NCBI GenBank assembly: GCA_947452785.1
Contig: CANGDZ010000006.1
Span: forward strand, 1 to 64,000
DNA length: 64,000 bases
Origin: Comamonadaceae bacterium
GTDB taxonomy: Bacteria; Pseudomonadota; Gammaproteobacteria; Burkholderiales; Burkholderiaceae_C
Direction of reading: 5' to 3'
Position 1 is the first letter of the stretch. The number at the start of each line of letters is the position of its first letter. The notes beneath the pieces were generated by a model. It made no database searches and had not been told where the DNA came from. It worked only from the letters and a program-made list of their open reading frames with translations. Below, piece by piece: positions 26,082 through 29,661 of this stretch. Both the position numbers and the translations under genes were made by a program.

Positions 26082-27689
26082 ATGCCTGTTTTGCACACCC
26101 AACTCAACCCGCGCTCTGCCGACTTTCAGGCCCACGCGGCGGCCATGCGCGGACTGGTCGATGACCTGCGCGCTCACCTGGAACGCATTGCCCAAGGCGG
26201 TGGTGATGCACCTCGCGCCAAGCATCTGGCGCGGGGCAAGTTGCTGCCGCGTGACCGCGTGCAAATGCTGCTCGACCCCGGCACGCCTTTCTTAGAAGTG
26301 GCCCCTTTGGCGGCCCTGAATATGTACAACAACGACGCGCCCAGCTCGGGCGTGATCGTGGGCATTGGCCGCGTCAGCGGGGTGGACTGCATGATCGTCT
26401 GCAACGACGCCACGGTGAAGGGCGGCACCTACTACCCGATGACGGTGAAAAAGCATTTGCGCGCGCAAGAGATCGCGCAGCAAAACCGCTTGCCCTGCAT
26501 TTATTTGGTGGACTCGGGTGGAGCGAATCTGCCGAATCAGGACGAGGTCTTTCCCGATCGCGACCACTTTGGCCGCATCTTTTTCAACCAAGCCAATATG
26601 AGCGCGCTTGGCATTGCACAGATTGCGGTGGTCATGGGCAGTTGCACCGCGGGTGGCGCTTATGTGCCCGCCATGAGCGATGAAACCATCATCGTCAAAA
26701 ATCAGGGCACCATCTTTTTGGGCGGCCCGCCTTTGGTCAAAGCGGCCACGGGCGAGATCGTCACGGCCGAAGACCTGGGCGGCGGCGATGTGCACACCCG
26801 CCTGTCGGGCGTGGCCGATCATCTGGCGCAGAACGATGTACACGCCTTGTCACTGGCGCGCCAGGTGGTGAAGAATTTGAACGCGAAAAAGGCGCCGAAC
26901 ATCGCCACGCATGCACCCGTGGCGCCGCTGTTCGATGCGCAAGAGTTGTATGGCGTGATCCCGACCGACACACGTAAACCTTTTGATGTGCGCGAGATAA
27001 TTGCCCGCATCGTCGACGGCTCCGAGTTCGATGAGTTCAAATCACGCTTTGGCACCACGCTGGTCTGCGGCTTTGCGCGCATTGAAGGCATGCCGGTGGG
27101 CATCATCGCCAACAACGGCATTTTGTTTTCTGAGTCGGCCTTGAAAGGCGCGCACTTCATCGAGTTGTGCTGTCAACGCAAGATCCCGCTGGTTTTTTTG
27201 CAGAATATTACCGGCTTCATGGTCGGGCGCAAATACGAAAACGAAGGCATCGCCCGCAACGGCGCCAAGATGGTCACAGCCGTGGCCACGGCGGCGGTGC
27301 CCAAGTTCACCATCATCATCGGCGGCAGCTTTGGCGCAGGCAACTACGGCATGTGTGGCCGCGCCTTTAGCCCGCGTTTTTTGTGGATGTGGCCGAACGC
27401 CCGCATCTCCGTCATGGGCGGCGAGCAGGCGGCCAGCGTGCTGGCCACGGTCAAGCGCGACGGCATCGAAGGCAAGGGCGGCCAGTGGAGTATGGAAGAA
27501 GAAGAAGCCTTCAAAGCCCCGATCAAACAGCAGTACGAAGACCAAGGACACCCCTATTACGCCACCGCCCGCCTGTGGGATGACGGCGTGATCGATCCGG
27601 CGGATACGCGCCGCGTGCTGGCGCTGGGGCTGTCGTCTTCGCTCAACGCCCCGATTGCAGAAACTCAGTTTGGCTTGTTCCGCATGTGA
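26082..27689 (+). CDS. liuB: 3-methylcrotonyl-CoA carboxylase, carboxyltransferase (beta) subunit
   Basis: A 535-residue carboxyltransferase that moves the carboxyl group from carboxybiotin to 3-methylcrotonyl-CoA. Crotonase-fold oxyanion regions are visible as [11 protein letters not shown] and [16 protein letters not shown], along with the MCC-typical [16 protein letters not shown] and [21 protein letters not shown]. The start [12 protein letters not shown] gives the family length. Its last codons (GLFRM and stop) are part of a 19-bp sequence repeated after the next gene. Confidence 0.93.
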
Positions 27690-27692
27690 AGG
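27674..27692 (+). repeat. 19-bp direct repeat, copy 1 (end of liuB)
   Basis: CTTGTTCCGCATGTGAAGG spans the last five codons and stop of liuB. An identical copy occurs at 28850-28868, just upstream of liuC. The two copies bracket the inserted hydrolase gene. Confidence 0.95.
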
Positions 27693-27699
27693 GCCATAA

Positions 27700-28833
27700 A
27701 TGAAACTGATAGTTGCTCTGATATTGGCATTCTCTGCGCAATGGTTACCTTTCAATTCAATAAGTCAAGAGTTAAGCGCCGCATTGAATGAGGAGGTGCT
27801 TTCCATCCCCAAAAAGGGACGATTTTTCACAGTGAATCTTGAGGTCACAATTTTCAAGCCAGCTTTAGAGGGGGTCTTTCCCGTTGTCGTGATAAATCAT
27901 GGAAAAGCGCTTGGTGATCCCCGCTTTCAGTCGCGCTACCGCCCCACAAATGCTGCGAGATTTTTTTTGCAACGTGGCTATGCCGTTGTTGTTCCGATGC
28001 GGCAAGGGTTTTCAAAGTCTGAAGGCGGTTACATCGGTGGAGGGTGCAACGTTGAGAGTAATGGCATAGCTCAAGCAGAAGATGTCAAGGCGGTTATGGA
28101 TTTTGTGGTTCAGCAATCTTGGTCGGATAAAGAAAAAGTGTTGATTGCTGGTCAATCGCATGGTGGCTGGACGACCTTGGCATTTGGTTCGGAAAACTAT
28201 CCCGGCGTCCGTGGCCTGGTTAATTTTGCGGGAGGGCTCAAGCAGGAGAGCTGTACAGCTTGGGAGAGCGTCTTGGCTCGCGCCGCCGCTGAGTATGCCA
28301 AAACAACTAAGGCTCCATCAATTTGGTTTTACGGTGATAACGACAGTTATTTTTCACCATTCACCTTCAATGGCATGTTTGAGAAATATACGGCGGCGGG
28401 TGGCAATGCTCAATTGGTTGCTTTTGGCGTGTTTGAAAATGACGCTCACTCAATGTTCAGTAGCCGTAAAGGAGAGACCATTTGGCAACCTAAGATTGAC
28501 GCGTTCATGCGTCAGGTCGGATTGCCTGCGGATATCGTCTACCCAAAATTTGCAGGCATTCAACGAATGGCACCACCCGCCCCAACAGATTTTGCGGGTA
28601 TCAATGATGTTCTAGCCGTCCCTTTCCTTACTGAGAAAGGACGTGAGGGCTACAAAAACTTTTTGACAAAGCAATACCCCAGGGCATTCGCCATCGCCCC
28701 GAGTGGACGATGGGCATGGACGGAAATGGGTGATGACCCACTAAAGCGAGCCCTGGATACCTGTCATAAAAACAACAACCAAGTTTGTCGACTGTATGCA
28801 GTTGATGATCAAGTGGTTTGGGTAAAGGAGTAA
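27700..28833 (+). CDS. Secreted alpha/beta hydrolase inserted between liuB and liuC
   Basis: A 377-residue protein with an N-terminal signal peptide (hydrophobic residues 3-16) and a dienelactone-hydrolase/prolyl-oligopeptidase-like alpha/beta fold. The nucleophile elbow GQSHGGW has Ser153; an acid is likely in YGDNDSYF (about 213) and the histidine in ENDAHSMF (about 249). INHGKALGD early on fits the oxyanion region. The last ~100 residues are an unassigned domain. GC is clearly below the neighbours (27 and 25 G+C in the 60-base lines at 27961 and 28081, against 44 at 27421 in liuB), and liuB-liuC are normally adjacent. It is most likely a recent acquisition; substrate unknown. Confidence 0.85.
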   Translation: MKLIVALILAFSAQWLPFNSISQELSAALNEEVLSIPKKGRFFTVNLEVTIFKPALEGVFPVVVINHGKALGDPRFQSRYRPTNAARFFLQRGYAVVVPMRQGFSKSEGGYIGGGCNVESNGIAQAEDVKAVMDFVVQQSWSDKEKVLIAGQSHGGWTTLAFGSENYPGVRGLVNFAGGLKQESCTAWESVLARAAAEYAKTTKAPSIWFYGDNDSYFSPFTFNGMFEKYTAAGGNAQLVAFGVFENDAHSMFSSRKGETIWQPKIDAFMRQVGLPADIVYPKFAGIQRMAPPAPTDFAGINDVLAVPFLTEKGREGYKNFLTKQYPRAFAIAPSGRWAWTEMGDDPLKRALDTCHKNNNQVCRLYAVDDQVVWVKE

Positions 28834-28849
28834 ACGTGTCTAATTTTTT

Positions 28850-28868
28850 CTTGTTCCGCATGTGAAGG
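28850..28868 (+). repeat. 19-bp direct repeat, copy 2 (upstream of liuC)
   Basis: An exact copy of the liuB end (CTTGTTCCGCATGTGAAGG) continues into AGTAAACCCC before the liuC ATG and supplies its ribosome-binding site (GAAGGAG). Removing 27674-28849 would rebuild a normal liuB-liuC junction. Confidence 0.95.
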
Positions 28869-28878
28869 AGTAAACCCC

Positions 28879-29661
28879 ATGTACCAAACTCTTGAAATCC
28901 AAATCGAACACCACGTCGCAACGGTGTGGATGAATCGCCCTGATGTGCACAACGCATTTGATGAAACCTTGATCGCCGAATTGACGGCGGCCTGCAAGGC
29001 CCTCGACAAAGATCCGGCCGTACGCATCGTGGTGCTGGCCGGGCGCGGCAAAAGCTTTTCGGCCGGAGCGGACTTGAATTGGATGAAGCGTGCCGCGCAC
29101 AACAGCTTGCATGACAACTTGATGGATGCGCGCGCCTTAGCGGGCATGCTGCGCACTTTGTCAGAGATGCACAAGCCGACCATAGCGCGCGTGCAAGGCG
29201 CGGCCTTGGGAGGCGGCACCGGCTTGACTGCGGCATGCGATATCGCGATTGCCTCGACCCAAGCGGTGTTCGCCACATCCGAGGTCAAGTTTGGCATCAT
29301 CCCTTCGGCCATCAGCCCCTATGTGGTGCGGGCCATCGGTGCACGACAAAGTTATCGCTTTTTTCAAACCGCCGAGCGCATTGACGCGCAACGCGCATGC
29401 GCCCTGGGCTTGGTGCACGAAGTGGTGGCACCTGAGCAGCTCGACGTCAAGGTGCAAGAAATGGTGCAGGCCCTGCTGCAAGGCGGACCCTTGTCGCAGG
29501 CGGCTGCCAAGCAGTTGATCCGCGCGGTGGACGGTCACGCCATCAACGACGATGTGGTCGAAGACACGGCGCAGCGCATTGCGCATTTACGCGCTACGCC
29601 AGAGGCCAAAGAAGGCATCTCTGCTTTTCTCGATAAGCGTCAACCTTCGTGGTTGGCTTGA
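28879..29661 (+). CDS. liuC: Methylglutaconyl-CoA hydratase (enoyl-CoA hydratase family)
   Basis: A 260-residue crotonase-family protein hydrating 3-methylglutaconyl-CoA to HMG-CoA. The oxyanion-hole segments are VVLAGRGKSFSAGADLNWM and VQGAALGGGTGLTAACDIAIA; the helix around FGIIPSAISPYVVRAIG is typical of the LiuC group. Placement after liuB and before liuD supports this substrate over a general fatty acyl role. Confidence 0.92.
   Translation: MYQTLEIQIEHHVATVWMNRPDVHNAFDETLIAELTAACKALDKDPAVRIVVLAGRGKSFSAGADLNWMKRAAHNSLHDNLMDARALAGMLRTLSEMHKPTIARVQGAALGGGTGLTAACDIAIASTQAVFATSEVKFGIIPSAISPYVVRAIGARQSYRFFQTAERIDAQRACALGLVHEVVAPEQLDVKVQEMVQALLQGGPLSQAAAKQLIRAVDGHAINDDVVEDTAQRIAHLRATPEAKEGISAFLDKRQPSWLA

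Follow-up and report, generated by a model that had tools for sequence, protein, structure and literature searches.

A hydrolase gene bracketed by a 19-bp repeat of the liuB tail suggests gene capture at a variable operon junction in a Comamonadaceae bacterium

How does a gene enter an operon without breaking it, and what do its edges tell of its arrival? These questions are raised by a liu operon in a 64,000-nucleotide stretch of DNA from a Comamonadaceae bacterium (contig CANGDZ010000006.1; the whole stretch is hereafter called the window), the source assembly of which is a draft of 120 contigs with 4.08% contamination. The gene order, all on the + strand, is liuB, a hydrolase gene (hereafter HYD), liuC, liuD, a D-2-hydroxyacid dehydrogenase-like gene and liuE, where the identities of the liu genes and of the dehydrogenase-like gene are presumed from operon context and recall. 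The GC content of HYD is 48% (47% at third positions), compared with 61% (76%) for liuB and 59-60% (70%) for liuC. HYD is also the single long gene-like ORF (27700-28833, 377 aa) between two copies of CTTGTTCCGCATGTGAAGG, an exact direct repeat of 19 bp with a spacing of 1,176 bp. The preliminary description of this DNA had reported one low-GC, secreted-type hydrolase gene bracketed by such a repeat, and it was right in this respect, the copies lying at 27674-27692 and 28850-28868. The features of the junction are as follows.

26082-27689, + strand: liuB, carboxyltransferase subunit, ending in ...TQFGLFRM (Carboxyl_trans, E 6.4e-157)
27674-27692, + strand: left repeat copy, the native liuB end (stop TGA at 27687-27689 plus 3 nt)
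27693-28849, + strand: inserted unique DNA, 1,157 bp (1,176 bp when one repeat copy is counted), not found at the junctions of G110 and G108
27700-28833, + strand: HYD, secreted-type alpha/beta hydrolase with a C-terminal domain, 377 aa
28573-28830, + strand: HYD C-terminal domain, 86 aa, two invariant Cys, weakly DUF4189-like
28825-28830, + strand: AAGGAG, putative ribosome-binding site within the last HYD codons (from sequence and pattern counts)
28836-28849, + strand: GTGTCTAATTTTTT, probably the truncated start of the gene that came next in the donor (liuC2)
28836-28865, + strand: 9-codon ORF VSNFFLFRM, spanning the joint
28850-28868, + strand: right repeat copy, a liuB tail fragment running into the native liuC leader
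28879-29661, + strand: liuC (type 1), enoyl-CoA hydratase family (ECH_1 match)

The repeat has no third site in the window, even when up to 3 mismatches are allowed. In shuffled versions of the window (n = 100), the 19-mer found a mean of 0.03 matches, and two matches in 0 of 100. The right copy runs on into the liuC leader AAGGAGTAAACCCC and then the ATG at 28879, and this leader is identical to that in a congener, G110. The window's liuC (92% DNA identity to another congener, G094), its liuC-liuD junction and its liuD are all G094-like, and liuC is therefore native. Since the left tail is native and the right copy continues into a liuC leader that is native as well, the window has two copies of the liuB tail of the target itself. 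Among 70 other congeneric liuB tails, the ending TQFGLFRM is common only to G108, G110 and G109. The final 60 bp of liuB have an identity of 0.87 to G108 and of 0.70-0.80 to nine others, and the crossover is not placeable because these 60 bp match no relative closely. When 67 liuB-liuC gaps of at least 100 nt, including the window and other families, were searched for a repeated liuB tail, the window alone had one (19 nt), and the next longest exact match was 11 nt.

The genus set consists of 90 genomes, one per species, with the window's own included. The window's type of liuC (type 1, or liuC1) is found in 15 of the 90 (E 1e-110), and the closest three by this gene are G094, G108 and G110 (92-94% protein identity), none of which has a HYD match at E 1e-8. 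In G110 and G108, liuB directly adjoins liuC with the leader AAGGAGTRAACCCC (one base different in G108), and the 19-mer is found as a single exact copy in G108 and with one base different in G110. In G094, a DinB-family gene occupies the junction instead. Removal of 1,176 bp from the window yields a junction very like the real junctions of G110 and G108. It had been claimed that excision would restore a normal junction, that the insertion left the operon intact and that relatives with adjacent liuB and liuC would support it, and all of this agrees with what these genomes contain. Over liuB, liuD, the dehydrogenase-like gene and liuE, G094 is the nearest to the window at the DNA level. In a FastTree tree of four operon proteins from the 40 genomes carrying all four (G108 was left out, its contig being too short), the window, G094 and G110 form a clade with support 1.0, and the window and G094 are paired with support 0.80. 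The remaining congeners that combine liuC1 with an empty junction (G013, G060, G071 and G079) have no full HYD, and G071 has a match to the C-terminal domain only, away from the junction. With HYD missing from the nearest clade, a gain in the window's lineage is the best fit, and a single gain is the simplest history; on that history the age of the gain can only be bounded, as after the split from G094. The claim of a recent insertion thus stands as a gain in the lineage and not as a date, and low GC is by itself no sign of recency.

The right joint comes directly after GTGTCTAATTTTTT. Downstream of HYD, the stop codon is followed by 2 nt and a GTG, the same layout as between HYD and the other type of liuC (liuC2) in G008, a congener in which HYD also lies behind liuB. 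The strict form of this pattern, with the ribosome-binding site before and the GTG after the stop, occurs at 1 of the 1,598 stop triplets on the + strand, and a looser form at 4 of 1,598 on the + strand and 0 of 1,722 on the - strand. The frame VSNFFLFRM starts 2 nt past the HYD stop with a ribosome-binding site of its own and terminates on that of liuC, and a possible role for it is a translational relay that could hand ribosomes to liuC.

We favor as probable, though well short of certain, the explanation that the liuB-liuC junction captured a piece of the liu operon of a related bacterium, which was anchored in the liuB tail and had an illegitimate joint at its other end. The donor piece would have comprised a liuB end, HYD and about 14 bases from the start of the following gene, which would be a liuC of the other type. 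The conserved liuB tail would have been the anchor, and the far end would have been joined without long homology just upstream of the same tail; in geometry, the ends of the fragment may have been joined into a circle, with a single crossover at the liuB tail bringing it in. The same outcome would be expected from a variant of homology-facilitated illegitimate recombination. Either way the 19-bp anchor would be present twice and liuC would keep its own ribosome-binding site, so that the 19-mer would be a duplicated anchor and not the target duplication of a transposon. Homology at one end, as befits a homology-anchored capture, is found in the liuB tail of both copies and in G008, where liuB stands directly before HYD. 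We infer the donor, the order of the joints and DNA uptake as the route. A comEC-family match and two dprA-family matches are present in the window's genome, and the same families also match in most of 14 control genomes, Escherichia coli included; their presence is no proof of uptake, because most control genomes match too.

A comparable product is described in an E. coli conjugation study (PMC3240628, section 12), where a duplicated homologous segment was detected by PCR in 56 of 60 clones, 14 sequenced duplications measured 109-950 bp and the duplications were attributed to recircularised molecules that had entered by a single crossover. From homology-facilitated illegitimate recombination in the strict sense, that study expects a deletion rather than a duplication, and it was seen in 4 of 60 (PMC3240628, section 12). 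Because of that expectation, the single-crossover form fits better here. The captures described there and the window are alike in having one homologous anchor and a duplicated homologous segment, and probably also one non-homologous joint, whereas the window's anchor is 19 bp in a natural scar, compared with the 109-950 bp given there (PMC3240628). Against capture, a 19-bp anchor is a short substrate for RecA-type crossing over, and the relic of the donor is only 14 nt. An illegitimate joint is likely, in line with the illegitimate recombination proposed in the preliminary description.

Other histories could lead to the same sequence. HYD and the repeat might be older than the clade and have been lost by precise deletion between the 19-mers in G108 and G110 and by DinB replacement in G094. 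HYD is common at the same place across the order, a deletion between the 19-mers would yield junctions of the G108/G110 type, and the distance between the HYD genes of the window and G008 is as expected from HYD's usual rate under common descent; however, this history takes two or three losses against one gain, the empty liuC1 congeners G013, G060, G071 and G079 are without a full HYD, and an earlier insertion is still needed to make the repeat, and we regard it as rather unlikely. It is improbable that HYD was instead the resident, in the order liuB-HYD-liuC2, and that an incoming fragment with a liuB tail and liuC1 replaced liuC2 and brought the second 19-mer. Such a replacement would leave an identical final sequence, and the GTG after HYD resembles the start of a lost liuC2, but the window's liuC1, liuC-liuD junction and liuD match its own clade (G094), and liuC1 is in G094, G108 and G110 alike.

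The usual target duplications of insertion sequences are shorter than 19 bp. A clean direct repeat flanking one gene is what a mobile cassette or a transposon with a 19-bp target duplication would leave, but the repeat exceeds that usual length, no inverted repeats were found at the ends of the insert, HYD fills the insert with no space for a transposase, the insert matches its own genome once and not in multiple copies, and no other slot tested repeats its liuB tail. These findings make such an element very improbable; the small mobile cassette suggested before is not upheld, in contrast to the reported lack of terminal inverted repeats. Hardly any weight is left to an assembly or binning artefact that fused the operons of two strains: the genome is a draft with some contamination, but both flanks come from the same lineage, and HYD is intact and placed as in known operons.

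Is HYD a stranger to the operon? A HYD match at E 1e-8 is found in 33 of the 90 genus genomes, some to the C-terminal domain alone. In G008, HYD (66% identical) lies between liuB and a liuC of the other type; in G011, G076 and G103 (48-50%) it comes directly after liuC and ahead of liuD, and a more distant cousin (33-38%) follows liuC in 22 congeners mapped. At the family level, 47 of 399 genomes, including the window's, have a match at E 1e-40. In one scan of named genomes, 44 of 67 HYD loci have a same-strand liuB, liuC or liuD nearby, and in 30 of the 67, including Ralstonia, Cupriavidus, Variovorax and Polaromonas and one that is G008, HYD lies between liuB and liuC; the remaining loci include short contigs and also genomes such as Massilia with no visible liu gene nearby. 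By homology and by its conserved place beside liuB or liuC, HYD belongs to a hydrolase family resident in liu operons. Judged by gene order, HYD is evidently not foreign to the liu operon and is a common liu neighbor in Burkholderiales, so these loci and G008 do not support the earlier view that the hydrolase is unrelated to leucine breakdown. The liuB-HYD-liuC operons of Ralstonia, Cupriavidus, Variovorax and G008 share with the window the family, place and strand of the gene, but they have HYD followed by liuC2, whereas the window has HYD followed by liuC type 1. Unlike the window, G008 and the other slots tested have no such repeat, the Ralstonia, Cupriavidus and Variovorax loci lying outside that test.

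The GC content of the family is about 50-52% in G011, G076 and G103, and G008 has 55%, while the operons around these genes have about 60-64%. Low GC was rejected as proof of a recent foreign origin, since the family is low in GC in these four congeners. The sister of the window's HYD is that of G008 (SH-aLRT 99, quick tree), and pN/pS is about 0.26 for HYD, indicating purifying selection. Between the window and G008, pS/pN is 0.79/0.21 for HYD versus 0.48/0.045 for liuB, and in the control pair G011-G103 it is 0.67/0.10 versus 0.42/0.022. The large window-G008 distance was dropped as evidence of transfer because HYD outruns its neighbors in G011-G103 too. Between G076 and G103 (L198, L208), the synonymous-site difference is 0.18 for HYD and 0.40 for the adjacent liuC2, an apparent sign of recent exchange of HYD alone. 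The HYD cousin is closer than liuB in 2 of 5 congener pairs tested and further apart in 3 of 5. Slot hydrolase genes evidently do move between congeners. Searches of the genus, family and named-genome sets found no near-identical HYD donor, the best being 66%, and no clear donor tract was found in liuB.

The N-terminus of HYD is hydrophobic and, judged from sequence, typical of an export signal. The predicted structure has an alpha/beta hydrolase fold (mean pLDDT 91), with a putative dienelactone hydrolase as the best Foldseek match (E 1.8e-12); solved relatives found by sequence are two weak lipase matches (E 0.001). Ser153, Asp215 and His250 are invariant across 29 of 29 aligned sequences, and would form the catalytic triad. 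HYD scores 44.1 bits against Peptidase_S15 (PF02129), above the Pfam cut-off of 23; CocE/NonD (TIGR00976) was discarded, at 35.4 bits below the NCBIfam cut-off of 66.3. HYD shares the fold and the Ser-Asp-His residues with Peptidase_S15, Hydrolase_4 and dienelactone-hydrolase-like enzymes, but adds a C-terminal domain for which no solved relative was found. This domain is predicted confidently (pLDDT 94), and a search by fold gave no solved relative below E 4. DUF4189 was rejected as its family: there was no significant Pfam match, 4 of 23 members matched at E up to 0.5 (best 0.025) and the window's domain had none. The domain also recurs near liuC in an M48 peptidase with a PDZ domain (two copies) and in 308-aa and 284-aa proteins without Pfam matches; loci beyond the window are L076:7998-8543, L082:8583-8795 and L091:10547-10828. 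HYD is most likely an exported serine esterase or acyl hydrolase, predicted to be expressed with leucine/isovalerate breakdown. That it feeds branched acids into the leucine pathway is our best guess, and a doubtful one. Through gene order across Burkholderiales, a family of exported hydrolases that had not been characterised is linked to leucine breakdown, so that its function can be tested. No account of a hydrolase in a liu operon, or of a toxin-antitoxin pair inside one, was found in the open-licence literature.

The junction itself is variable. Among 67 of the 89 other congeners, those with a liuB end and liuC on one contig, the slot is filled in 55, and liuB and liuC lie within 60 nt of each other in 12. 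The fillings are vapBC in 37 (with or without DinB or other genes), DinB alone in 4, HYD in 1 and another insert of about 1.2-1.3 kb in 13; of the latter, 6 were mapped, and all hold an acyl-CoA dehydrogenase homologue (one Pfam-checked). Among the vapBC slots, one includes a portion of the distant HYD cousin, and the C-terminal domain is found in two. Pfam checks covered VapB, VapC and DinB in one genome and the M48 peptidase in G026. Separation of liuB and liuC in most species had been named in advance as an argument against a recent insertion; it is found in these 55 of 67 congeners and so applies in part, and a gain in the window's lineage still fits best. The same junction is thus filled in many ways across the genus with the operon unbroken, and the event in the window looks like a known kind of process, a further change of gene at a variable junction, of which the scar would record one capture step, the way in which operons gain genes.

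The position of liuC in the operon is taken by one of two types, about 50% alike, depending on the congener, which suggests whole-gene replacement of liuC within the operon. A second liuC-like hydratase (49%) is encoded on another contig of the window's genome, at G000:C73:11441-12211 (L116), beside an acyl-CoA dehydrogenase. It is quite possible, though we put it forward tentatively, that the junction is a long-lived exchange slot in which modules (HYD, vapBC, DinB, acyl-CoA dehydrogenase and the M48 peptidase with the HYD C-terminal domain) and even the two liuC types are swapped between species through recombination that uses the conserved end of liuB as its anchor, and that the window keeps one such swap with its scar, the start of a donor gene and a nine-codon frame that may couple liuC translationally.

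The liuB end has its own peculiarity in the 37 vapBC congeners, in which the last liuB codons are mostly AAATTTGGACTTTTCCGCATG, running into TGTGTATGAT...TCATACACA (L087:7564-7592). This sequence suggests a putative vapBC promoter, with its -35 element inside liuB, and an operator; if real, the promoter would explain why synonymous liuB codons are frozen in these congeners. Promoter-like sites at the vapBC-side liuB end number 1, versus 0.4 in shuffles.
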